Below are positions 8,069 to 45,545 of a DNA stretch of 53,270 bases, piece by piece. The DNA is taken from positions 1 to 53,270 of the IMG/VR virus record IMGVR_UViG_3300037264_001837; one strand, given 5' to 3'. The position numbers and the translations under genes are program-made. The stretch's first letter is position 1, and the number at the start of each line of letters is the position of its first letter. The stretch comes from a virus. A model generated the notes under the pieces. It ran no database searches. It was not told where the DNA came from and worked only from the letters and a program-made list of their open reading frames with translations.

Positions 8069-8327
8069 TCCCCACCCGCCCTGCGCCCGGAGCAAGCACT
8101 GGCATTGCGGCGTCTGCTTCGGGGTCTGCCGCATCTGCCGGCGGCCTCGGCAGTTCAACCCGGGGACCGCGGGCCTGCCGTGGTTCTCGTGTTGCGAGAT
8201 CATATGGACGCGGGCGCATCCGATCAAGCCGGGCGGGACTCCCGACTACGCGGTCATGCTCTCCTCCGAGCGCCACCTGAGCGATGATCTTGCAGCCGCG
8301 AAGCGCAAGCCGAAGGTCGGGTCATGA
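8061..8327 (+). CDS. Cysteine-rich hypothetical protein
   Basis: 88-aa protein with seven cysteines in its first half: C..., HWHCGVCFGVCRICRR and SCCE. The HCxxC...CxxC pattern strongly suggests one or two bound zinc ions. The TTG 8061 start overlaps the methyltransferase stop by 8 bases and is preceded by GAGAGG. The C-terminal part is helical and basic (DDLAAAKRKPKVG). It sits between a methyltransferase and a SNF2 helicase and may be a zinc-finger partner, but this is inference from context. Confidence 0.6.
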   Translation: MVDPHPPCARSKHWHCGVCFGVCRICRRPRQFNPGTAGLPWFSCCEIIWTRAHPIKPGGTPDYAVMLSSERHLSDDLAAAKRKPKVGS

Positions 8328-9769
8328 CCGTCCAGGACTACCCCCACCAGGAGCTCGAGCGCGAACACTTCCTCGACCCCGCGCGCTTCCTGTTCTGGCC
8401 GATGCGAGTCGGCAAGACCAAGTCCGCGATCGACTGCGCTTATGAGCTGCACGGCGAGGGCCTGATCCAAGGCGTGATCGTCGTCGCGCCGGTCGGGGTC
8501 CATGCCCAGTGGCCGGACGAGCTCGCCAAGTTGGTGCCCCACTGGTTCGAGCGGCGCGACGCGTGGGCCTGGGGCGAGCCGATGAAGGGCAAGGTCCAGC
8601 CGACACCCGCGTTCAACTCCTGCGAGATGGGCCGGCTGGGCTGGTTCTGCGTCGGCAAAGAGCACTTGATCATGGACAGCGTTTGGAAGCTCCTGGTCTG
8701 GTTCGCGCGCCGGTTCAAGTGCCTGCTGGTGATCGACGAGTCTCACCATTTCCGGACGCCATCCGCGAAGCGGACCCGGCGCGCGATCGCGCTCGCCGCG
8801 AACTGCCCGTACCGCCGCTTGCTGACCGGATCGCGGGACGACAACTCGCCCATGAACAACTGGAGTCAATACGAGATCCTCGAGCGCGGTGCCTTGGGCT
8901 GCCGCACGTTCTCCGGGTTCCGGGAACGCTTCGCGATCCTGGAGCAGACCCGCGGTCACGGTGGCCGGCTGTTCCCGAAGATCGTCGGCTTCAAGAACCG
9001 CGACGAGCTGCACGCGCGCATGGCGCCGTTCACCCACGAGGTCCGGGAAGAAGCCGTAGCGGGCCTCGCCCTGCCGCGCTTTCACCGCAGGGCCTTCGAG
9101 CTCGGGGCCAGGGAGCGCAAGATCTACGACCAGCTCCGGGAAGAGACTCGCGTCCGACTCGAGAGCGGCGAGATCATCGACGCGGTGTCCGAAGCCGCGA
9201 TGCTGGTCCGGCTCCAACAGGTCGCGTCAGGCTTCGCGAAGGACGAGCACGGTCAAGACCACATCATCGGGGAGTCCCGGACCGAGGCGCTGGTGGAACT
9301 GACTGAAGAGATCAGGTATCCGGATCGACAGATCGTGGTCTGGGCCCGCTTCCAGCGTGACGTGCGCGCAGTCACCCAGGCGCTTCGTCGCCTGCACGGA
9401 GACGGCGTAGCCGAGATCAACGGGGACGTGCCGAAGCACACGCGCAAGCTGGTCATGGACCGGTTCAATGCCGGGACCGTGCGCGCGATCGTGGCGGACC
9501 CGGGCTGCGCGGGCGAGGGCTTTGATCTGGCCGCGGCCCGCTCGATGATCTGGTACTCGCACACCTGGGACGCGGCCGCGCGCCGGCAGGCGTGCGCCCG
9601 CGCGACGAAGATCGGACTCGACTCCTCGGACGTGATCGACCTCGTAGGCCGCGGGACCGTGGACGAAGCGATCCTCGGTTGTATCGACGCGAAGCGCGAG
9701 ACCTCGAACGCGACTCGCGATATTTTCGCGGCCGTGTTCGGTCGGTGGCGGGACCCTTTACTCGACTGA
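8324..9769 (+). CDS. SNF2-like DEAD/DEAH-box helicase
   Basis: 481-aa superfamily 2 ATPase of the phage SNF2 type. Walker A is MRVGKT (about 27-32), motif II DESHH (about 138-142), motif III LLTGS (about 166). The C-terminal RecA domain has DPGCAGEGFDLA (about 392-403, motif V) and RQACARATKIG (motif VI region) in place of the usual QAxGRxxRxGQ, so the second arginine finger region is divergent. It starts at ATG 8324 (ATGA overlap). In phages with the DUF2800/DUF2815/PolA module this helicase normally accompanies the VRR-NUC nuclease (here 11852) and is thought to remodel forks or recombination intermediates. Confidence 0.9.
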   Translation: MTVQDYPHQELEREHFLDPARFLFWPMRVGKTKSAIDCAYELHGEGLIQGVIVVAPVGVHAQWPDELAKLVPHWFERRDAWAWGEPMKGKVQPTPAFNSCEMGRLGWFCVGKEHLIMDSVWKLLVWFARRFKCLLVIDESHHFRTPSAKRTRRAIALAANCPYRRLLTGSRDDNSPMNNWSQYEILERGALGCRTFSGFRERFAILEQTRGHGGRLFPKIVGFKNRDELHARMAPFTHEVREEAVAGLALPRFHRRAFELGARERKIYDQLREETRVRLESGEIIDAVSEAAMLVRLQQVASGFAKDEHGQDHIIGESRTEALVELTEEIRYPDRQIVVWARFQRDVRAVTQALRRLHGDGVAEINGDVPKHTRKLVMDRFNAGTVRAIVADPGCAGEGFDLAAARSMIWYSHTWDAAARRQACARATKIGLDSSDVIDLVGRGTVDEAILGCIDAKRETSNATRDIFAAVFGRWRDPLLD

Positions 9770-10104: not shown

Positions 10105-10290
10105 ATGATCCGACAGCAGATCGCCTTGCGAATCACGCATCGGCTCTTCGAGTGCCCGCTCGAGGATCTGACCAAGAGCGCGGACCAGGCCGGCGTCCCC
10201 GCGGGGCACGCGCGGCTGGTCTGCACACGGTGCCAGGCCGAGTGTATCGTCCCCACGGTCGAGCACGCGATCAAGGAAATGTCTCCGTGA
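10105..10290 (+). CDS. Small hypothetical protein with C-x2-C-x3-C
   Basis: 61-aa protein beginning at ATG 10105 and ending in a GTGA overlap with the MT-A70 gene. It contains FECPLEDLTKSADQAG and then CTRCQAEC, a probable half zinc site. No good Shine-Dalgarno is visible. A CTG at 10075 would overlap the preceding stop and is a less orthodox alternative start. Confidence 0.5.
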   Translation: MIRQQIALRITHRLFECPLEDLTKSADQAGVPAGHARLVCTRCQAECIVPTVEHAIKEMSP

Positions 10291-10955
10291 CTGAGCGGTT
10301 CACGCTCGCGCTATTCGACCCCCCGTGGGAGTATGAGGAACCTGACGCGGTGCGGAAGTTCCCAGGGACCCGCAAGGCTCCAGCGACCGCCCACTACCAG
10401 ACCATGACAGTGGCAGCCATGGTCGAGCAGTTCCGCCCGCTGGTCGACTCGCTCCTGGCTGACGATTGCGCGGTACCGATCTGGTGTACTGGACCGAAGA
10501 CCCTGACCGACCTCCCGCAGCTCGGCTTCGGGCTCGGCCTCCAGCCCGTCACCAAACTGCTCTGCTGGATCAAGATGCCGAAGTCGTGGGGGCCCGGGCA
10601 GCTCCGGATGCGGGAACCGGACCTTGACTTCGAGGCGTTCTGCGGGCTCGGATTCTACAGCCGTTCCGCGACCGAGGACTGCTGGCTCTGGGTGAAGGGC
10701 AAGCCTGAGCTCCCGGACGACCGCACCGTACGCCAGTCGATCCACGCGCCCGAGGCCGTGTCGCCGGACGCGCTGCACGCGGCTCGCCGCGAGCACAGCC
10801 GGAAGCCCGACGAGAGCTACCGGAGGATCGAGCGCCTCTGGCCCAAAGCGCGGCGCGTCGAGTTCTTCGCCCGGCAGACGCGACCGGGATGGGACGCGCT
10901 CGGCAACGAGACCACGAAGTTCGACGCGACCAGAGAGGTGGACCCGCTCGCATGA
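10287..10955 (+). CDS. MT-A70-family N6-adenine methyltransferase
   Basis: 222-aa enzyme of the MT-A70 family, predicted to make N6-methyladenine in phage DNA. The catalytic DPPW is at residues 11-14, immediately after the first beta strand. The family block HYQTMTV is at about 44, and EHSRKPDE (about 168-175) with the following FFARQTRPGWDALGNE forms the AdoMet-binding end, in the circular permutation typical of MT-A70. GTG 10287 overlaps the previous stop. Together with the enzyme at 6809 and the Mom-like protein at 44006 it gives the phage three potential DNA-modifying activities. Confidence 0.92.
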   Translation: MTERFTLALFDPPWEYEEPDAVRKFPGTRKAPATAHYQTMTVAAMVEQFRPLVDSLLADDCAVPIWCTGPKTLTDLPQLGFGLGLQPVTKLLCWIKMPKSWGPGQLRMREPDLDFEAFCGLGFYSRSATEDCWLWVKGKPELPDDRTVRQSIHAPEAVSPDALHAARREHSRKPDESYRRIERLWPKARRVEFFARQTRPGWDALGNETTKFDATREVDPLA

Positions 10956-35544: not shown

Positions 35545-36579
35545 TCAGACGATGATCGAGTAGAAGAAGTATCCCAGGTCCGCGGCCACGACCTTGGGCT
35601 GGGTGTAGTTCTCGATCTCCACCCGGAACGAGGTCTTGAGCGGCATCTCGAGCCGCTGCAGTCGGGTGCCCCGGCTGCTCAGCCCGTCGACGTTCGCGTT
35701 GCGCAGCGTGAACGTGTAGGACGCGCTCGCGGTGTAGCGGCCCGGCCGGGGCGTCACGTAGGCGAGCAGCGCCGAGTTGCCGCCGAAGAAGGCGTTGGAC
35801 TCGGCCTGGCCCTTGGCCGCCGCGTTCTCGATCCCGGACATGACCAGCACGCGCTCCACGTGGAAGATCCGCGCGAGATCGTTCTCGGTCGCGACCGCGG
35901 ACTGGCCCGGGGTCGCCCCGCCCTTGATGAGGTCGAGGATGTCGGGGTGGATCGCCAGGGCCTCGAAGACCCCGAAGGTCAGGAGCAGGGTGTTGGCCCG
36001 CTTGCCCGACCGCGCCAGGCGGGTGCGGCCCTTGCTCATGTCCTTCAGCGGCTTCGAGGTCGGATCGTTCCACCGCAGGATCTTGTTCAGGGTCGCGCTG
36101 GTGGGATCGAAGGTGGCGTCGGGAGTGGCTCCCGAGTTCACGCCCTCGGCCAGGAAGGACCATGGGGTGCCCGGTGCGGTGCCAGCGAGCAGGCCGTCGG
36201 CGAACATCCCCTCCCGGTGGATCAACGCCTTCTGGGTGACGAAGTCCGCGGCCTCCTGCTCGGGATCGAGCACCTCGTCCGCGTCCGCCGACTCCACGTA
36301 GTCGGTGTCCTTGTGGAAGGCCTTGCGGGTGATGTTCAGGGGGTCCCGGGAGAGGCTGTAGCCCGAGCCCTCGGACTCGGTCGACGGGGCCCGGGGCTTC
36401 ATCTCGTCCCGGTTCCAGTCGCCGCGGTTGAAGACCACGTAGTTTCCGGACCGGTCCTGGGTGTATACCGCCGGCGCGAATCGGTCGGCGACGAAGTTCG
36501 CCTCGTCCTGCATCCAGCCGACCGACATGTCGGTCAGGGTCTTGTCGGTGTGAAACTCTGCCCTGGTCGGGTTCGGCAT
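35545..36579 (-). CDS. Major capsid protein
   Basis: 344-aa HK97-fold type capsid subunit without a long N-terminal delta domain. Visible features: an N-arm (TLTDMSVGWMQDEANFVADRFAPAVYTQDRSGNYVVFN), then WNRDEMKPRAPSTES, which corresponds to the E-loop region, and conserved strands near the end (TSFRVEIENYTQPKVVAADLGYFFYSIIV). The gene follows protease, scaffold and decoration genes as in Mu-like and other siphophages. ATG 36579 has GAGGAG upstream. Confidence 0.9.
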   Translation of the reverse strand: MPNPTRAEFHTDKTLTDMSVGWMQDEANFVADRFAPAVYTQDRSGNYVVFNRGDWNRDEMKPRAPSTESEGSGYSLSRDPLNITRKAFHKDTDYVESADADEVLDPEQEAADFVTQKALIHREGMFADGLLAGTAPGTPWSFLAEGVNSGATPDATFDPTSATLNKILRWNDPTSKPLKDMSKGRTRLARSGKRANTLLLTFGVFEALAIHPDILDLIKGGATPGQSAVATENDLARIFHVERVLVMSGIENAAAKGQAESNAFFGGNSALLAYVTPRPGRYTASASYTFTLRNANVDGLSSRGTRLQRLEMPLKTSFRVEIENYTQPKVVAADLGYFFYSIIV

Positions 36580-36638: not shown

Positions 36639-36998
36639 TCAGACCGAGTGCTGTGGCTTGACGATGATGGTGAAGAGGTCGTCCAGGACCGCGGCCTGCT
36701 TGGCCTCGCCGGCCACGGCATCGCCCGTGCCAGCGACCACCGCCTTGCCGTCGGTCCCCGGGGTCACGAGGTCGCCGGCCGCGATGGTCCCGCCGGCCTG
36801 GGCGAACGAGACCCCGCCGACCGCGACCGCGCAGACCTCGTCGAGTACGGGCTTGTCCTGGTTCACGCCGGTGATGTGCCCGCCGGCCGAGGGGACCGTG
36901 ACCTTGCCGGTCGACTGGAGCTTGACGAAGCGGTACTGCTTCGCGGACAGGTCCACGCCCGCGATCTCGCTGGTGGTCTGGAGGTTCTGCTCACCCAT
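36639..36998 (-). CDS. Capsid decoration protein (DUF2190-like)
   Basis: 119-aa beta-rich protein with DLSAKQYRFVKLQSTGKVTVPSAGGHITGVNQDKP and AQAGGTIAAGDLVTPGTDGKAVVAGTGDAVAGEAKQAA, the pattern of DUF2190 / cement proteins. Expected to bind capsid surfaces and stabilise them. The 59-bp gap to the capsid gene and the 68-bp gap upstream contain repeated AGGAGC-type sequences. ATG 36998. Confidence 0.82.
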   Translation of the reverse strand: MGEQNLQTTSEIAGVDLSAKQYRFVKLQSTGKVTVPSAGGHITGVNQDKPVLDEVCAVAVGGVSFAQAGGTIAAGDLVTPGTDGKAVVAGTGDAVAGEAKQAAVLDDLFTIIVKPQHSV

Positions 36999-37066: not shown

Positions 37067-38047
37067 TCAGGCCTCGGCCTCTTCGGTCTCCTGGCGCCGC
37101 AGCTCCGGGTGCTGCTTCACGACCCGGGAGACCGCCTGCTCCCGGGAGAGGTTGGGGTCGGCCTTGCGGAGCTCGGCGGCCTTGGCCTCGATCTGGGCCC
37201 GGGCCCCGCCCGTCGCCGGCGCCCCACGGCCGCCCCGCGCACCGAACAGGTCCCCGACCTTGACCTGTTCGGCCAGAGCCTTCATGACCTGCTCGAGCTG
37301 CTTCGCCTCTTCCGGGCAGCTCTTCCGGATGCGGGCGATCGCCGGGGCCGCGGCCTTGGCGGTCGGGATCTTCTCGTACTCGCCCTCGATCTTGCGGACG
37401 GACTCGGCCGCCTCCATGTCCGCGAGCTTCTGGACGGTGGCCCGGTGCTCCTGGTCGAGCTTCTGGACCATCTGGGCCAGCGCGTCTTCGGGCGCACCCT
37501 CGGGCTTGGCGAGCTTCGCCACCAGGCCCTTGAGCTCGTCGTCCTTCATCGCGTCGAACTGGGGGTACATCGAGGCTGGGATCGACTTCTTGAGCGAGAC
37601 CAGCAGCGCGGCCCGGTCAGCCTTCGCCACGGTCTCGGACTTCATCTGGGCGAGCATCGCCTCGAGCTCCTTGATCCGAGCCTCGAGGGCGGCGACCTCG
37701 GGCGACTTGGCGCCGTCGGCGGGGGGAGGCATCTGGCCCGGGGCGGCTGCACCGTGGTCGGCCTTCGGGATCTGGGTGTCGGGCACGGGAGCCTCCTTGT
37801 CGTCGAGCTTGTCGGCGATCTGCTGGACGGTGGCCTTGCGCATGCCCAACGCGCGGAGGAGACTCTCGGTCCAACCCACCCGCTCGTCGGTCTGCGCGCC
37901 GCCCATCGCTGACAACATAGCACGGGCCTTTGCGGCCCTGTCCATCTTCAGCAGGCGAATCTCCGAGGGCTGATTCGCGGGCCGCGTGACCGGGCCCCAC
38001 TCCATCGCCTCAGGCTCGACGAGGTCATGCAGCTTCTGCTTCGGCAC
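37067..38047 (-). CDS. Scaffold-like protein (helical, between protease and capsid genes)
   Basis: 326-aa charged helical protein: N-terminal KQKLHDLVEPEAMEWGPVTRPANQPSEIRLLK, central coiled coil (VAALEARIKELEAMLAQMKSE), and LAQMVQKLDQEHRATVQKLADMEAAE. The C-terminal half is Ala/Glu/Lys-rich and ends in EAEA. Position after the protease and composition fit an internal scaffold that the protease removes. GTG 38047 has GGAGG eight bases upstream; TTG 38053 is an alternative. An ORF extending further upstream is a shadow. Confidence 0.65.
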   Translation of the reverse strand: MPKQKLHDLVEPEAMEWGPVTRPANQPSEIRLLKMDRAAKARAMLSAMGGAQTDERVGWTESLLRALGMRKATVQQIADKLDDKEAPVPDTQIPKADHGAAAPGQMPPPADGAKSPEVAALEARIKELEAMLAQMKSETVAKADRAALLVSLKKSIPASMYPQFDAMKDDELKGLVAKLAKPEGAPEDALAQMVQKLDQEHRATVQKLADMEAAESVRKIEGEYEKIPTAKAAAPAIARIRKSCPEEAKQLEQVMKALAEQVKVGDLFGARGGRGAPATGGARAQIEAKAAELRKADPNLSREQAVSRVVKQHPELRRQETEEAEA

Positions 38048-38049
38048 GG

Positions 38050-39102
38050 TCAAGTCCTCCGGATCCGCTTGGAGAGCCCGTCCCACGAGAACCCGGTGAA
38101 CTCCCCGGAGAGGACACGCGCCCATGCGCCCGGGTCCTCGATGTGGCTGCAACCCCATGCCCCGGCCCGATCGAGCTGGCAGCCCATGGCCTTCTGTACG
38201 TCCCGGGTGAGGCACGCGAGCTCGACGACGCGGCCCACCGGTTGGCCGTCGTGGTTGAGCTTCGAGATCCGCGGGCCCGCGTTGAACGTGTGGACGAGGT
38301 GGAGCAGGTCGTCCTCCGAGATCACGTCGCCCTCGACGTCGACGACCGGCACCCCGTCCTTCTCGATCACGGAGAACCAGCCGTAGACGAGCTGCTTCAT
38401 CGGCTCGGCCTTGACGATCTGGACCAGGCTCCCGCGGCCCTTCTCGACGACGCCAGCGCGCCACTCGTCGTCGATCTCCGCGAAGACCTCAGGCCCAAAG
38501 ACCAGCTCGCCCGCGTAGGGTTTAACCTTCTCGAGGTCCACGGCTCCAGCCTCGTAGCTGATCGTGACGTGCGACTGGTAGCCGGGATAGTCCCAGGTCG
38601 CGCCGCCCTCGCGGAACTGGAGATGCCGGGCTTGCAGCTCCGGCGAGCCGAACTTCAGCACGACCGCGCCCTCGGACCCGAGCGGCTCCACCGTCCGATC
38701 GGGGCCTGGGGAGACCACCAACGGACCGGGGTCGGGAGCGAACGCGTGCCACGGCACCACGCCCTTCGAGTAGCAGACGGTGACATGGATCTCGGCCGGG
38801 TCCGTCGTCGTCGGGAATCCCTGCGCCTTGGCCCAGGCCGCGAAGCTCGGCGCGTTCAGCAGCTTGCGCTCGACGTAGAGCGTGCGGGGCGGGAGCTCGA
38901 CGCCGAACGAGCGGGCGAATGCCACGTACCTCGCGTTGACCGGCACGTCCGCGAGCTTCGCGGCTCGCTTGTCCCACTCCGCGGCCGCGACCGCGAAGCG
39001 CGCGCCCGCGTCCGGGAACTCGCGCCGCGCCTTCTCGTCGGCCATGAATCGGTCCAAGAAGTCCTGGCGGTCCTCCGTCGGCCCGGGCTGGGGAAGCGGC
39101 AT
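38050..39102 (-). CDS. XkdF-type prohead protease fused to an N-terminal 2H-phosphoesterase-like domain
   Basis: 350-aa fusion. Residues 1-50 (EFPDAGARFAVAAAEWDKR) form an N-terminal region shared by phage head proteins. Residues about 73-210 hold HVTVC (106-110) and HVTIS (178-182), two HxT motifs of the 2H phosphodiesterase superfamily, with LYVERKLLNAP and FGPEVFAEI as flanking conserved parts. Residues about 225-350 are a XkdF-like serine protease: VYGWFSVIEKDGVPVVDVEGDVISEDDLLHLVHTF, then HDGQPVGRV and EFTGFSWDGL. The 2H domain resembles phage Acb1-type nucleotide-degrading domains (family knowledge; inference). ATG 39102 overlaps the previous stop (TGATG). Confidence 0.75.
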   Translation of the reverse strand: MPLPQPGPTEDRQDFLDRFMADEKARREFPDAGARFAVAAAEWDKRAAKLADVPVNARYVAFARSFGVELPPRTLYVERKLLNAPSFAAWAKAQGFPTTTDPAEIHVTVCYSKGVVPWHAFAPDPGPLVVSPGPDRTVEPLGSEGAVVLKFGSPELQARHLQFREGGATWDYPGYQSHVTISYEAGAVDLEKVKPYAGELVFGPEVFAEIDDEWRAGVVEKGRGSLVQIVKAEPMKQLVYGWFSVIEKDGVPVVDVEGDVISEDDLLHLVHTFNAGPRISKLNHDGQPVGRVVELACLTRDVQKAMGCQLDRAGAWGCSHIEDPGAWARVLSGEFTGFSWDGLSKRIRRT

Positions 39103-39263
39103 CACTGCACCCCCGAGTGGACGATCACCGCGACGCACGGCAGGATGACCAGGACAAGCAGGAGCAGCGCGCAGACCAGCAGCACCGACTTGACCGCGAG
39201 CTCGAAGCCGAGCAGCAGCCGGCGGACCCGAGAGGGTTGGTCCTGATCGAGCGCCACAGTCAT
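39102..39263 (-). CDS. Small single-helix membrane protein in the head module
   Basis: 53-aa protein. A charged lead (ALDQDQPSRVRRLLLGFE) precedes one membrane helix (SVLLVCALLLLVLVILPCVAVIV). It is nested tightly between the Mu F-like gene (overlap ATGA) and the protease (overlap TGATG), so translation is coupled. Possible roles are superinfection exclusion, holin/antiholin or a membrane anchor; none can be proven. Confidence 0.6.
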   Translation of the reverse strand: MTVALDQDQPSRVRRLLLGFELAVKSVLLVCALLLLVLVILPCVAVIVHSGVQ

Positions 39264-40390
39264 TCCCCCAGCCCGCCCCCGAAGATCAGAGCCACGGTGC
39301 ACCGGCAGTTGATCAGATTCACGTTCTCGTCGGCCGGCGAGTCCACGTCTCCGAACGGAGTCCGGAACGGCTGCCCCAAGGGTACACCGTTGGGGTTCAT
39401 GCCCGGGATCGCCGCGTGGGAATCACGCAGGCGCTCGTCGTCGGTGACGATCCAGACCCGTCGCGTGCGCTTACGATCGAGCAGACCCATGCCCTCGGCC
39501 TGGGTCCAGATTTGCTCCTGACCCTCGATCAGCGCCCGGTGCGTCTCGGTCCGCGCGATGTTCTGCGCCCTTCGGTTGAGCAGCGACTCGGAGTAGCGGT
39601 CCACGAGCGCGTCGATGCGGCTCTGCTCGGCCTCGGGATCCGCCATGATCGACCGGGCCCGGGCCATGTCCACGCCGCTGAGCCTTCGCTCCGAGGGCGC
39701 GAGCCCCGGGCCCTCGCCGGTCTCGAGCCACTGGCGAAAGTTGTCGACTGCCTTGACCGAAGTGCTGTCGAGTCCGATGAAGCCGCGGATCTGACGCGCC
39801 GTCTCGATTGGCGGGCGGCCCAGCTCGAAGCTCCGCACGAGCTGGTCCTGGATCGCGTCGATGGACTCGCGGCTGATATTCTTGATCTGGGTCGGCGCGG
39901 TGGTCCGCAGGTACTTGATCGCCTCGGGGTTGCTCAGGTCCAGGTCTCCGACCAGCCTGGCTTCGCGGGGCGGGAGCTGGCGGGAGCCGGAGATGGATCC
40001 CGCGCGCAGCGCCTCGGTCAGGTCGACGATGAAGCTGGGGGCCCCGGGCGCGGTCCCCGAGCCGCGGAGCCGGTCTTCGAGGCTGACGATTCGAGCGATC
40101 TCCCGGCCCGGCGCCCCGACCCGAACCAGCAGGGCTTCGATGCGCCGCACGTCCCGAGTCTCGACGAGCTCGACCAGATCCCGGAGCGGGATCGAACCCC
40201 GCAAGGCGCGCACGGCCTCGGTGAACCGGCGCGCGACCCCGGGCTCGAGCTCCTCGAGTGCCTTGCGCATCTCCCGCGCCGCGCGCTGCTCTTCCCGGGA
40301 CCGGGCCTTCGCCAGCTGGATCGGCGCGCGGGCCTTGCCGATCGCGACCCGCGAGTCGAAGCCGGGGGCCCCGATCAAGACCGGGGCCAC
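39260..40390 (-). CDS. Mu gpF-like / SPP1 gp7-like head morphogenesis protein
   Basis: 376-aa minor head protein of the Mu F family. The diagnostic C-terminal part is RAQNIARTETHRALIEGQEQIW, followed by RRVWIVTDDERLRDSHAAIPG and NLINCRCTVALIF. The first half is a helical region (SREEQRAAREMRKALEELEPG). GTG 40390 has GGGAG at seven bases; TTG 40396 would overlap the portal stop. A long upstream ORF is a shadow. It binds the portal and helps DNA ejection in relatives. Confidence 0.85.
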   Translation of the reverse strand: MAPVLIGAPGFDSRVAIGKARAPIQLAKARSREEQRAAREMRKALEELEPGVARRFTEAVRALRGSIPLRDLVELVETRDVRRIEALLVRVGAPGREIARIVSLEDRLRGSGTAPGAPSFIVDLTEALRAGSISGSRQLPPREARLVGDLDLSNPEAIKYLRTTAPTQIKNISRESIDAIQDQLVRSFELGRPPIETARQIRGFIGLDSTSVKAVDNFRQWLETGEGPGLAPSERRLSGVDMARARSIMADPEAEQSRIDALVDRYSESLLNRRAQNIARTETHRALIEGQEQIWTQAEGMGLLDRKRTRRVWIVTDDERLRDSHAAIPGMNPNGVPLGQPFRTPFGDVDSPADENVNLINCRCTVALIFGGGLGE

Positions 40391-40392
40391 AG

Positions 40393-42012
40393 TCAAGCTC
40401 CCGGGATCGGTGGCGTAGCCGGCGCGGGCGCGGGGGCCGGACTCTGGACGCGGCCAGCCTCGCCGACGATCCCTTCCGCTTGCTCCCGCGTCAACGGGAA
40501 CCCCGTGACCAAGATGCCGACCGCGGAGCTTCGGGGCACCTCGCCGGTCACGACTTGCGCGACCAGGTCCACCATCGCCTGGACCTGCGCGCCGTTGAGC
40601 GCCTGCGCCGGATCCTTGGCGGTCTCCGGTACGGGCAAGCGAGCGCCCTCGATCTGACCGGGCTCGGCCGAAGCGCTCGGTAGGGCAGCGGCCGGCGGGA
40701 CAGCGATCGGGTCCTCGTCTTCCTGCGGGAGCCCAACCACGTCGCGGATCATGGCCTCGGTCGCCTTGCCGCCCGGGATCAGGAACCCGGCCATGGTCAG
40801 CTTCGCGACGGCCTCCGCGAACTGCGCGAGGTCCCGCTGGTCGAGGTCGCCTGGCTCGAACCAGCACGCCTCGGCCAGGTCCCAACCGTTCACCCGATAG
40901 ATCAGCGGGATCAGCACGCGATTGAGCACGGCCGCGACGGCCTTCAGCCAGGCCCCGAGCACAATCCCGAACAGCGAGGTCTTGGAGTCGGCCAACGCGT
41001 AGGAGCCGACCTGCGCCTGGCCCAACATGATGAAATCCGCGAGCATCGTGCGGGCGATCGCGTGGTCGTAGCGCCCGATCACCGCGGTGGTGTCGTGCTG
41101 CCGGCGAGCCATCGTACCGAGCAGCGAGAACTTGACCTGCGGGTTCCCCTTGTCGTCGTAGGTCTGCGGGATCCCGATGCCAGCCTGCTCGTCGAGCTTG
41201 ACCCGCTTGAGCAGCTCCTCCCACGCCGCGACCGTGGCCTTCTGGCCGTCCGTCGCGTCCGGCGTGGCCCAGGCCGCGGGGTACTCCACGGTCGGGATGC
41301 CGGCGAGGTCCCGCTCGATGCCGATCGCTTCGGACTCCTCGACGTGTTTCTTGAAGTACCAGGAGCGGTAGGACCGGCGAAGCGCCGAGACCCCCTCGGG
41401 GTTGTTCTTACGGCTGGTCGTCCGGAAGTGCAGCAGCTTCTCGATCGGCAGGAACACATCGGTCGAGCCCTTGGCGAACGGGTCGCGTTGCCAGGCCCCG
41501 AGCAACCGATCTTGGTCGTCCCACTCCCACCGGTCGATCGTGTCCTGCGCCCGGGGCGACAGCGACCGAATGCCGACCAGCCCGTCCGAGTACTTCGACT
41601 TCCGCGCCGGGTCGGTCTCTTCGGGTCCGACCCGGTACTTGAGCACGATCTCCGAGAGCTCGAAGCCGAACTGCACCATGGTCAGGGCCTCAGCGATGAA
41701 GTCCTCCCAGGTCTCGTCCATGTCCTCGGTCATCGAGCGCACGGCCTCGGCCTGGTCTTTGTGCTCGGGGAGCTCGCTGAAGGGGTTGACCAGCCAGTCC
41801 ACATTGCGCAAGGTCATCTCGACCGCGAAGAGGGTCGCGCCCACGGTCGCGTCGTTGTCCCCCATCTCGCGGTAGGTCTTCATCCCCCGCAGGCCCTGGA
41901 GCTTCTGCAATCGCTCCTCGGAGATGCGACCGCTGTACTTCCGGAGGCCGGTGGTGCCGATCGGTGGGGCTGCCGGATCGAGAGCCTGGGTGGGGGGCGT
42001 AGGATCCGCCAT
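40393..42012 (-). CDS. Portal protein (DUF935, Mu gp29-like)
   Basis: 539-aa portal of the DUF935 type. Features: KTYREMGDNDATVGATLFAVEMTLRNVDWLV (about 45-75), HFRTTSRKNNPEGVSALRRSYRSWYFKKHVEES, and LADFIMLGQAQVGSYALADSKTSLF. The end is a Pro/Ala-rich tail. ATG 42012 is chosen over GTG 42018. Between terminase and Mu F-like genes, as in Mu-type head modules. It forms the DNA entry ring. Confidence 0.92.
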   Translation of the reverse strand: MADPTPPTQALDPAAPPIGTTGLRKYSGRISEERLQKLQGLRGMKTYREMGDNDATVGATLFAVEMTLRNVDWLVNPFSELPEHKDQAEAVRSMTEDMDETWEDFIAEALTMVQFGFELSEIVLKYRVGPEETDPARKSKYSDGLVGIRSLSPRAQDTIDRWEWDDQDRLLGAWQRDPFAKGSTDVFLPIEKLLHFRTTSRKNNPEGVSALRRSYRSWYFKKHVEESEAIGIERDLAGIPTVEYPAAWATPDATDGQKATVAAWEELLKRVKLDEQAGIGIPQTYDDKGNPQVKFSLLGTMARRQHDTTAVIGRYDHAIARTMLADFIMLGQAQVGSYALADSKTSLFGIVLGAWLKAVAAVLNRVLIPLIYRVNGWDLAEACWFEPGDLDQRDLAQFAEAVAKLTMAGFLIPGGKATEAMIRDVVGLPQEDEDPIAVPPAAALPSASAEPGQIEGARLPVPETAKDPAQALNGAQVQAMVDLVAQVVTGEVPRSSAVGILVTGFPLTREQAEGIVGEAGRVQSPAPAPAPATPPIPGA

Positions 42013-42033
42013 GCCCACAGCCTACACCGGCGG

Positions 42034-43503
42034 TCAGGGGACCGGCGCGGGCCGGGTGATGCTCAGCGGCGGGGCTACCGCCGACCCCGACACGGAGCGT
42101 TCCCGGATCCAGCGAAGCACCTGGCTGAGCGCGTCGACCCGGTCCTTTCGCGGCGAGCCCGGGAACGTCGTGACCTCCGCGACGAAGTCCGCGACCCACG
42201 GCGCGGATTCCGGGAGCCAGAGCTTGCCGGCCTGGATCAGCGGTGTCTCGACCTCGAGCCGCGTGACCTTGTCGCGCTGCCCGGGATCAATCGCGATGAC
42301 CGGAAGCCGGGACCCCCGCCGGAGGTACTGGATGATCCCCTGGCCCGAGTCGCGGTCCTCGATCAGGAGCGCGGACGGATTCCAGTGCTCCGCGAGTTCT
42401 CGGACCTTGGGCAGGAGGTCGGGGATCTCGAGCCGCTGAGCGAACACGTCCCAGACCTCGAGCCGGTCCGGGAACTCCGCGATCGTGATGCACGCCTGGT
42501 TCGCGCTCGACTCCTTGGCCTTCGACGCGCAGTCCCAGGACTGGATGATCCGGATCGGATCCGCGCCGCGGGACGTGTAGCGATTCGACAGCCAGGCGCG
42601 CTTGATCATCGCGCCCTCGCGAGGCACCGGGTTCTGCTGATAGATCGACTCCCACGACGCGGGGTCCATGGCTGCCTTCTGCTCGAGCAGGAACTCCAGC
42701 GGCTTGAGCTCCGGGAACAGGGCCTCGCCGCGCTTGCGGTGCGGCTCGTCCTCGATCGCGATCGCGGGGTAGCTCACCACGTCGATCGTCGGATCGTCCG
42801 CGATCATGTGTCCTACGAGGTCCGCGAGGTTCCACCGGGTCATGATGACGATCAGCCCGTAGGCCTTCGAGAAACGCGTCCGGAACACGTCGCGGAACCA
42901 GTCCCATACCCGCGCCTGGATGATCGTGCTGTCCGCGGTCTGGCGGTCCTTGACCGGATCGTCGATCATCCCGAGGTCGAGCGGCTCTCCGGTCAGCGGC
43001 CCCTCGACTGTCGTGTTCCGGAACGAGCCGATCTGACCCACCAACTCAAGGTGCGTCGAGTTGCGACGCGGCTTGCCCGCTTGGGTGACTACGTTCTCAT
43101 CGCAGAGCCGCGTCGCGGGGAACACGCGCCGATAGGTCTCGGAGTCGATCAGGCGCTGGAGCCGGAGGTTCGCCCGGGTGCCGAGGTAGTCGGAGTAGCT
43201 CGCGAAGCCTGAGCGCATCCCGGGGCACCGGCCGAGACACCAGCCGAAGAAGTCCGTCACGATCATCGACTTGCCGTGCTGCGACGGCGCCGTGAGTACC
43301 AGGGCCGGCCGCTCGCCCGCGAGCATGCGCGCGAGGAACCGTTCGAGCCGCTCGGCCGCGTCGCGCTGCCACCAGCCGAGGACGTAGTCCGGATTGACAA
43401 GCCGGAAGAAGTCCCAGTAGTGCCGGCGCGCGAGCTCCTCGTCGACGACCCGCGAGTCGAGCAGCTCAAGGTCGATCCCCGCGCCGCGCTCAGCCCTTGC
43501 CAC
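42034..43503 (-). CDS. Terminase large subunit
   Basis: 489-aa packaging motor. Walker A is TAPSQHGKS (71-79), Walker B LGMIDD (177-182). The C-terminal RNase H-like nuclease has SWDCAS (322-327), IEDRDSG (381-387) and KDRVDA (453-458), giving its acidic cluster. The arrangement fits the phage TerL families with headful packaging as well as others, so the end type cannot be told. GTG 43503 overlaps the TerS end by 14 bases. Confidence 0.95.
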   Translation of the reverse strand: MARAERGAGIDLELLDSRVVDEELARRHYWDFFRLVNPDYVLGWWQRDAAERLERFLARMLAGERPALVLTAPSQHGKSMIVTDFFGWCLGRCPGMRSGFASYSDYLGTRANLRLQRLIDSETYRRVFPATRLCDENVVTQAGKPRRNSTHLELVGQIGSFRNTTVEGPLTGEPLDLGMIDDPVKDRQTADSTIIQARVWDWFRDVFRTRFSKAYGLIVIMTRWNLADLVGHMIADDPTIDVVSYPAIAIEDEPHRKRGEALFPELKPLEFLLEQKAAMDPASWESIYQQNPVPREGAMIKRAWLSNRYTSRGADPIRIIQSWDCASKAKESSANQACITIAEFPDRLEVWDVFAQRLEIPDLLPKVRELAEHWNPSALLIEDRDSGQGIIQYLRRGSRLPVIAIDPGQRDKVTRLEVETPLIQAGKLWLPESAPWVADFVAEVTTFPGSPRKDRVDALSQVLRWIRERSVSGSAVAPPLSITRPAPVP

Positions 43504-44005: not shown

Positions 44006-44818
44006 TCACCCCAGGATGTCGTCGTGGAGCGCCTGGGTCGGAGTTGAACCGCCCTCTCCCACCTGGTCGGTGGGTGCCTCGCCACTAGGCTTCAGGCGCT
44101 CGCCTCGATACATCCTAGCACCCAGCTCGCCAATCCTGGCGAAGGGGATGATGGGCACAGTGAGCCGCTCCTGGACTCCCGCCCGCAGGAACCGGACGTA
44201 GCGGAGTTGAAATCCAGACAGGGGAGCAGCCCCCGCGGCCTTCGCTAGAGCCCCCACGCTCAACGGCGACGTGCCGCAGGTCATGCGGATCTCTTCTCGC
44301 ATACGCGTCGCACGGTTCAGCTCAAGGTTTATCTTGTGCGTCACTCTCCCATCGGGGAAGCGTAGAAGTTGCCGGTTTTTCTTGATCCCCGTGAGGACGA
44401 ATCCCGACGCCCGGTAGATCGTCCCATCTCCACATTGGGCGGCATCGGCGAACGACACTACCCATTCCAGACTCGGGTACTGCTTCGACAAGAGCCTGAA
44501 CGCGACAGCGAGCGCCCGGGACTCGGAGTTCCTAGGGAGCGCATTTGAGAAAGCCATGCGGTTGAGCTCGCAGAAGCCATCCCACTTCGTATCCCGCACC
44601 AACCAAGCCATGAACTCTTTGCGCATCGAGGGGCCGAACTGCATGACCCCCTCGAGCCGCCCGTCCCAGACCACCCCAAGATGAATGTTCGAGTTGTTCA
44701 CGTACCGGCCGCTGTAGTGCAGCTTGGAACAGAGCCGACGCGCCACGTCGGCTCGGATTGGCTCGACCCGCAGCGCCTTGCAATCGCTACTCGGCGAGGA
44801 AAGCGGAACAGATCCCAT
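44006..44818 (-). CDS. Mom-like DNA-modification protein (GNAT-type fold)
   Basis: 270-aa relative of phage Mu Mom, which converts adenine to N6-carbamoylmethyladenine and blocks many restriction enzymes (family knowledge). Matching features are LHYSGR (33-38), HLGVVWDGRLEGVMQFGP (46-63), ELNRMAF (84-90), RNSESRALAVAFRLL (96-110) and SFADAAQCGDGTIYRASGF (122-140). The C-terminus adds about 70 residues ending in DDILG. ATG 44818 overlaps the ParB-like gene by 32 bases. No Com-like translational activator is visible. Substrate chemistry in this phage is inferred. Confidence 0.85.
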   Translation of the reverse strand: MGSVPLSSPSSDCKALRVEPIRADVARRLCSKLHYSGRYVNNSNIHLGVVWDGRLEGVMQFGPSMRKEFMAWLVRDTKWDGFCELNRMAFSNALPRNSESRALAVAFRLLSKQYPSLEWVVSFADAAQCGDGTIYRASGFVLTGIKKNRQLLRFPDGRVTHKINLELNRATRMREEIRMTCGTSPLSVGALAKAAGAAPLSGFQLRYVRFLRAGVQERLTVPIIPFARIGELGARMYRGERLKPSGEAPTDQVGEGGSTPTQALHDDILG

Positions 44819-45545
44819 AGAGCGCGTTCCCGTTCTTGTTCTCGTTGACTTCCGAGACACCGAGCCCCCGCTCGATGGCAAGCCGCAACGCGGATTCAAC
44901 CGAATCTTTCTGCGACGCATGGACGGTGAAACTCATCAGGTGGAAGTCTTTCGTGGGCGCGGCTATCTGCTCTGGGAGCTGACCCCGTAGACCCGCGAGC
45001 GCGTCGGACTGCCGCTGCGCGACCTGCTCGATCTCGACTCCCTGGAACCTGAGCATCGGCGCGATGGCCGCGAGCTGTAGCCGGTGCAGCTCCGCGAACT
45101 TGGCCGCGCTCTCCTCGGTCACGTCGCCGTGGTGCGAGCTCGCGAGCATGACTAGTTCCGCGGCCTCGGTCTCGCTCTCGGCCTGGATCTCCGAGACCGG
45201 GATGCGCGCGGGGATCACGTGGCCTTGCTCTTCCAGCCACTCCAGCGACGGCACGCGCCCCGCGCCGTCGATCACGTAGCGGTGGCCCTCCCACACGAAC
45301 ACCGGGAACGCGAAGCCCTTGCCAGTGCGGTCGAGGATCGCGCCACCCAGGCGCTCGAGGTCCCTGGGCTTGCGGCTCTTGAGCGTGTTGCGCTCGTAGC
45401 CCCGGAGCTCGCCCCAGGGGATCGTAGGCCCGCCAGCGGCCACCCGGACCGTGATGCACGGCCCGTCGCAAGGCGGCTTCGCGACGCACTTTCGCGCGCG
45501 AGAAGGCCCGAGGATGTCGTCGTCCCCCTGCACGCCTCGGCTCAT
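44787..45545 (-). CDS. ParB/sulfiredoxin-fold protein
   Basis: 252-aa protein. The ParB-N/Srx core is WGELRGYERNTLKSRKPRDLERL (44-66), FAFPVFVWEGHRYVIDGAGRV (78-98) and SSHHGDVTEE, as in phage ParB-like proteins near terminases. A C-terminal domain (MSFTVHASQKDSVESALRLAIERG, NENKNGNALYGICSAFL) is a DNA- or ligand-binding domain seen in relatives. It opens with GDDDILGPS. ATG 45545 lies downstream of the 21-bp iteron array. Possible roles are DNA binding in packaging, modification or segregation. Confidence 0.82.
   Translation of the reverse strand: MSRGVQGDDDILGPSRARKCVAKPPCDGPCITVRVAAGGPTIPWGELRGYERNTLKSRKPRDLERLGGAILDRTGKGFAFPVFVWEGHRYVIDGAGRVPSLEWLEEQGHVIPARIPVSEIQAESETEAAELVMLASSHHGDVTEESAAKFAELHRLQLAAIAPMLRFQGVEIEQVAQRQSDALAGLRGQLPEQIAAPTKDFHLMSFTVHASQKDSVESALRLAIERGLGVSEVNENKNGNALYGICSAFLAE

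Follow-up and report, generated by a model that had tools for sequence, protein, structure and literature searches.

The window analysed here is the whole 53,270-nt stretch of the IMG/VR virus record IMGVR_UViG_3300037264_001837, and the gene in question, at positions 38050-39102 on the minus strand, joins an enzyme type that destroys the signals of CBASS (the cyclic oligonucleotide-based antiphage signalling system) to a phage-head maturation protease. Many other phages carry this pairing too, so the gene probably represents a real and repeated counter-defence arrangement. Its likely role is that of a head-maturation protease with an active Acb1-type 2H phosphodiesterase at its N-terminus, made late in infection and predicted to remove CBASS cyclic nucleotides. 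Sequence and structural models establish the family of the domain, its fold and catalytic tetrad. They likewise establish that it is fused, that the fusion recurs on several protease families and that Acb2-type genes lie next to relatives. In the proposed mechanism, the domain would open the 3'-5' bonds of the cyclic di- and trinucleotides of host CBASS and so leave CBASS effectors unactivated. Produced by the late head operon as part of the protease, the domain would be present at the prohead at the time and place of a late-stage CBASS trigger. Acb1 itself is not new, and a role against nucleotide signals was predicted in 2017 for 2H domains carried by portal and MuF proteins; the head-protease partner appears to be a new variant, and a literature search whose coverage left out many journals returned no report of Acb1 fused to head proteases.

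The fusion gene and its two domains

The open reading frame (ORF) begins with ATG at 39102, from which all residue numbers are counted, and ends with TGA at 38052-38050 on the minus strand, with a second possible in-frame start, GTG, at 39138. The frame is unbroken and, judged by codon-position GC content, coding over its whole length (0.71/0.47/0.90 at the three positions, a third-position bias typical of true genes). When the entire protein was searched directly against IMG/VR, no close or near-identical relative was returned. The gene and its parts are as follows.

38050..39102, minus strand: fusion gene, 350 aa, with a helical N-terminal extension, an Acb1-type 2H phosphodiesterase and an XkdF head protease (Pfam and ORF reading)
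38896..39102, minus strand: N-terminal extension, residues 1-69 (helices 12-21, 23-28, 32-51 and 57-65)
38458..38886, minus strand: Acb1 domain (PF23474), residues 73-215 (modelled with confidence over most of its length; best PDB match 7T26)
38875..38877, minus strand: Y76, equivalent to nucleobase-stacking Y12 (alignment)
38779..38787, minus strand: first HxT motif, H106-V-T108, corresponding to H44/T46 of T4 Acb1 (alignment, PMC9117128)
38587..38589, minus strand: Y172, which aligns with stacking residue F107 and preserves its aromatic character (alignment)
38563..38571, minus strand: second HxT motif, H178-V-T180, corresponding to H113/T115 of T4 Acb1 (alignment, PMC9117128)
38488..38490, minus strand: E205 of the GPE motif, near-invariant in the family, aligned with FBB1 E138 and not E141 (alignment)
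38461..38463, minus strand: W214, equivalent to lid residue W147 (alignment)
38422..38457, minus strand: short linker between the two domains, residues 216-227, including VVE/KG (model and motif comparison)
38062..38421, minus strand: XkdF head-maturation protease domain (PF14550), residues 228-347 (Pfam)
38251-38253, minus strand: conserved H284 in LNHDG (alignment)
38086-38088, minus strand: conserved S339 in GFSWDG (alignment)

The first-pass annotation of this gene had placed HxT motifs at residues 106 and 178, and they lie exactly there, at 106-108 and 178-180. They are not chance motifs, because the region matches the Pfam Acb1 model end to end (PF23474, profile positions 1-142 of 144, 126.9 bits against a cutoff of 27, E 6.6e-37). 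The generic 2'-5' RNA ligase model PF13563 (2_5_RNA_ligase2) reaches 16 bits, under its cutoff of 27, and PF02834 (LigT) is not listed in the Pfam scan of the fusion protein. In a phmmer search of PDB sequences the domain finds the C-terminal part of the portal protein of Pam3 (8HDS, 5.8e-21) and the FBB1 Acb1 (7T26, 1.9e-10). The same annotation had proposed a 2H domain of the Acb1 kind and suggested structure prediction and comparison with Acb1, and both led to the same family: an AlphaFold2 model built with 46 relatives in the alignment, the Acb1 and XkdF rows having been aligned separately, gives the domain a predicted local distance difference test score (pLDDT) above 90 over most of its length, and Foldseek places this model closest to 7T26 (4.5e-9, TM 0.79 by target) and to the complex with cyclic GMP-AMP, 7T27 (9.4e-9), with a LigT match (9e-4) far behind the Acb1 structures. 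The XkdF-type protease named as the fusion partner was likewise recovered, with PF14550 (Peptidase_S78_2/XkdF) matching residues 228-347 at 45.4 bits (cutoff 24, E 1e-11) and H284 and S339 conserved.

With residue roles taken from Hobbs et al. 2022 (PMC9117128), the catalytic tetrad H44/T46/H113/T115 of T4 Acb1 is kept as H106/T108/H178/T180. Its retention together with the stacking residues leads to the expectation that 2H chemistry is preserved. The tetrad is present in 239 of 242 distinct relatives and in all 16 protease fusions, and the catalytic residues lay outside the search patterns that gathered these relatives. In the same study nine more acb1 genes were tested, and each cleaved the tested signals (PMC9117128). 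W74 and E141 are substrate-contact residues of the characterised enzyme and not family-defining; across relatives the E141 position is glutamate in about half and alanine in many, and FBB1 and GEC-3S carry phenylalanine at the position aligned with W74. As neither equivalent is kept in the window protein, its base preference or substrate range may differ from that of T4 Acb1.

The N-terminal extension has no significant relative by phmmer or tblastn and is not present in the sister fusion described below. The idea that its first 50 residues are a known head-targeting tag was dropped, since these searches gave no significant match and a consensus sequence matched nothing.

Recurrence on head proteins and the proposed link to CBASS

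The pairing was followed in a collection of loci limited to the best 80 per scan, ranked by likeness to the query, so that the fusion counts given here are not natural frequencies. A sister fusion on another IMG/VR contig, L226, combines Acb1 (2.5e-43) with XkdF (4.7e-14) and is 38% identical to the window fusion over both domains, with shared gene order; because it has the same fusion in matching order, the arrangement is not an artefact. Acb1 lies N-terminal to a head protease in 16 of the 242 distinct Acb1 domains, with partners from three protease families. Seven have an XkdF-like partner, five of them above the Pfam cutoff (the window, L226, L211, L276 and L288) and two by a custom model only (L222 and L302). 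Four have an HK97-type S78 partner (L225, L228, L280 and L229, the last truncated at the contig end and slightly below the S78 cutoff), and five a DUF2213 partner (L043, L081, L221, L237 and L258), a family whose proteins carry the label head maturation protease in phage records, by annotation only. Portals of the Phage_portal_3 or Mu type carry most of the other Acb1 copies, at their C-termini, and some copies are accompanied by ART, PBECR3 or MuF. Relatives of the window phage by portal have the protease alone, without an Acb1 domain. In a tree of the domains the protease-fused copies are scattered, with nine changes on the best tree, only two of which are forced by strong branches, and all fall on the non-portal side, itself weakly supported. 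In these collections Acb1 is thus often a domain of a head protein, masked by names such as portal, prohead protease and RNA ligase.

The stretch that follows the Acb1 domain conforms to [ILVA]xE/K in 11 of 15 protease fusions and was considered as a candidate site of proteolytic cleavage behind the Acb1 lid. It was rejected as non-specific; the motif is perhaps just the C-terminus of the domain, because a comparable [ILV]xE also terminates many copies on portals. The first-pass annotation had raised release of the enzyme by self-cleavage or its packaging for delivery, and both are hypothetical.

The anti-CBASS role put forward in the first-pass annotation gained weight from the genes that adjoin relatives. 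The ORF immediately before the L226 fusion matches Acb2_Tad1_hairpin (PF24729, 7e-15), and a profile built from such ORFs recognises an Acb2-type gene in 24 of 245 distinct loci with Acb1; in 22 cases it lies at most 300 nt away on the same strand. Ten further candidates checked by Pfam were all confirmed. Acb2_Tad1_hairpin genes stand directly upstream of four protease fusions (L226 5593-5998, L225 5525-5987, L229 4846-5158 and L280 3711-3978) and, in 18 more loci, immediately downstream of portal genes that carry Acb1; random placement on a flank of about 10 kb would be expected to bring only a few per cent so near. These neighbours tie head-linked Acb1 to cyclic-nucleotide counter-defence, and T4 carries both Acb1 and Acb2 (PMC11722364). 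Some of the genes may be anti-Thoeris sponges, because the Pfam family includes Tad1.

How CBASS detects phages is a matter of active study, in which head proteases were lately implicated as activators. According to reviews (PMC12409349, PMC12072042), the Bas13 prohead protease interacts with a CBASS sensor and mutations in the protease allow the phage to escape; the former, citing Richmond-Buccola 2024, also reports that a prohead protease interacting with a CBASS sensor triggers growth arrest, and a 2026 preprint cited in PMC13424991 states in its title that phage proteases activate CBASS. Such reports suggest that the nuclease may be tethered to the trigger itself: the CBASS cyclase would sense the head protease, to which a signal-destroying enzyme has been attached repeatedly (XkdF, S78 and DUF2213), so that cyclic nucleotides would be destroyed where and when they are made, in some phages with an Acb2-type sponge gene adjoining. 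This trigger fused to its own antidote is a tentative and rather doubtful proposal. The occurrence of Acb1 on three kinds of head protease, and of Acb2-type genes beside relatives, gives an evolutionary hint at the target of CBASS sensing. It also opens the idea of a late, local counter-defence to direct testing.

Several members of the collection show further combinations. A single ORF carries NUDIX, Acb1 and protease domains at L302 3394-6505, and another a ParB-like stretch with Acb1 and XkdF at L288 3346-4864. One chain at L021 1829-4223 consists of portal, Acb1 and a PBECR3 nuclease domain, and the protein at L036 1341-4059 combines portal and Acb1 with a C-terminal domain bearing a JAB-like motif (VLHHNHPS; RadC model under cutoff), which could bear on the ubiquitin-like conjugation of CBASS cyclases. 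Free Acb1 genes labelled 'prohead protease' occur in Roseobacter phage DSS3P8 (L002 3989-4441) and Edwardsiella phage ZHS (L003 2116-2715), where the 2H domain is the only recognised part. The deposited chain sequence of the Pam3 portal (PDB 8HDS) includes the Acb1 domain at residues 460-617. This entry is not among the 50 Foldseek matches listed for the domain model, which suggests that the Acb1 domain may be mobile and hence missing from the cryo-electron microscopy model.

A second 2H type occurs at the same position. In Arthrobacter phage Waltz gp18 and Microbacterium phage ValentiniPuff gp7 a 2H domain of the 2_5_RNA_ligase2/LigT type precedes XkdF, both genes following MuF; judged by its portal, Waltz is related to the window phage. 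The Arthrobacter and Microbacterium LigT-type 2H-XkdF genes at L188 8185-9300 and L192 2998-4167 are variously labelled RNA ligase, aldolase and capsid maturation protease. A weak ParB-like match occupies the N-terminal slot of the protease in Rhizobium TM3_3_9. From these comparisons, the N-terminus of the XkdF protease looks like a site of enzyme exchange.

Alternative explanations and known systems

Several points weigh against a late-made protease that removes CBASS signals through its Acb1 domain. Cleavage of these signals by the window domain is a prediction, which presupposes CBASS in the phage's own host. The position of E141, which contacts adenine N6, is occupied by A208 in the alignment, with E209 adjacent, and the W74 stacking position is without an aromatic residue (T, V or E by alignment). 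The XkdF part is modelled with a pLDDT of 68 from a six-row alignment and has no PDB match at E <0.1, and a profile search found no Acb2 gene in the window. Furthermore, the fusion gene sits in the late head operon, unlike the early T4 Acb1, whose activity appears early (PMC11722364).

The fusion, or an N-terminal piece cut from it, may alternatively stay in the capsid and enter the next cell with the DNA as an injected effector, the route put forward for polyvalent proteins, clearing signals from the start of infection; the enzyme is the same, so that this explanation is compatible with late removal of CBASS signals, and its chances are only a little below even. That 2H domains joined to MuF or portal proteins are packaged was predicted in 2017 (Iyer 2017, PMC5512222), where such domains were seen as packaged effectors countering nucleotide signals, and again in a 2022 follow-up. 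Relatives bear Acb1 beside ART, PBECR3, NUDIX or ParB-like domains on head proteins, and most are on the portal, a permanent part of the virion. Head proteases and scaffolds, in contrast, are commonly removed from mature heads, and motif comparison of the fusions found no specific cleavage signal. A function in RNA end-processing, in which the 2H domain would act on 2',3'-cyclic phosphate ends, as in the mending of RNA cut by anticodon nucleases, or on 2'-5' linkages, is improbable. It would agree with the 2H fold, with a family match to PHROG 755, labelled RNA ligase, with the loss of two T4 contact residues and with the LigT/2'-5'-ligase-like 2H domains on the same protease family in related Arthrobacter and Microbacterium phages. 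However, the Acb1 model scores far above its cutoff and 2_5_RNA_ligase2 below, the E-value of the structural match to Acb1 is five orders of magnitude better than that to LigT, Acb2-type genes adjoin relatives, no RNA ligase was found among the window proteins searched, and Iyer 2017 did not see the 2H type alongside RNA ligases.

Still less probable is an Acb1-derived module for head assembly or scaffold binding in which the chemistry is incidental. The presence of the domain on portal, MuF and protease proteins, the Pam3 portal included, would suit such a role, but the near-universal tetrad, intact in every protease fusion, and the related phages whose protease lacks the domain do not. An assembly or ORF-calling artefact joining two genes was a concern for a metagenomic contig with no near-identical copy found in IMG/VR, and has a negligible chance: L226 refutes it in practice, five more Acb1-XkdF-like fusions exist and the frame is continuous and coding throughout.

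The predicted removal of CBASS signals by a head-protease fusion has partial counterparts among known systems. Acb1 (T4 gene 57B; FBB1, 7T26/7T27; PF23474) shares with the window domain its fold, tetrad, Y12, the aromatic residue at 107, lid W147 and the whole-length profile, but T4 Acb1 is a free early protein, whereas that of the window is fused to a late head protease and has not kept the E141 and W74 equivalents. Polyvalent proteins (Iyer 2017, PMC5512222) likewise tether a 2H domain to a head-gene product; the partners named in that text are MuF and portal, whereas the window gene uses the head-maturation protease. A Pfam scan finds only one effector domain in the window protein, where several different ones in a packaged chain would mark a polyvalent protein. 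The Acb1 subtype of the window domain is shared with the Pam3 portal (8HDS) and other proteins combining Phage_portal_3 and Acb1, in which the domain is C-terminal on the portal rather than N-terminal on a protease. Waltz gp18 and ValentiniPuff gp7 resemble the window gene in that a 2H domain forms the N-terminal part of the XkdF protein, the gene follows MuF and the phages are related by portal, but their 2H domain is of the 2_5_RNA_ligase2/LigT type and that of the window is Acb1. A fusion of Nudix with a capsid-processing serine peptidase (PMC9503650) similarly places a nucleotide-processing enzyme on a head protease, with a different enzyme fold.

The surrounding head operon

The operon runs in the order terminase, Mu-type portal, MuF, a 53-aa ORF, the fusion, scaffold, decoration protein and major capsid protein, and the order MuF, protease, scaffold, decoration, capsid is shared with Carvaje, TM3_3_9 and L226. 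Its other genes are as follows.

42034..43503, minus strand: terminase large subunit (PF17289; Pfam)
40393..42018, minus strand: Mu-type portal (PF06074; Pfam)
39260..40492, minus strand: MuF-like head morphogenesis protein
39102..39263, minus strand: 53-aa ORF with one hydrophobic segment and without a family match, overlapping the fusion start (TGATG)
37067..38047, minus strand: next gene, with the protease tail strand/PAN motif and the scaffold (GTG at 38047, own GGAGG at 38056-38060)
36639..36998, minus strand: probable decoration protein (gene order)
35545..36579, minus strand: E-type major capsid protein (Pfam match weak and under cutoff, backed by gene order)

A frameshift between the fusion and the next ORF, whether programmed or a sequencing error, was excluded by the downstream gene's own Shine-Dalgarno sequence and GTG start, and the split is not a frameshift error because kin show it as well. 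The 53-kb virus record additionally encodes DNA polymerase A and primase. Elsewhere in the window are a Mom-like DNA modification protein with an anti-restriction function (PF25680, 1.5e-45; 44006-44920, minus strand), an MT-A70-type DNA methylase (10152-10955, plus strand) and an SNF2-type helicase (8324-9769, plus strand).
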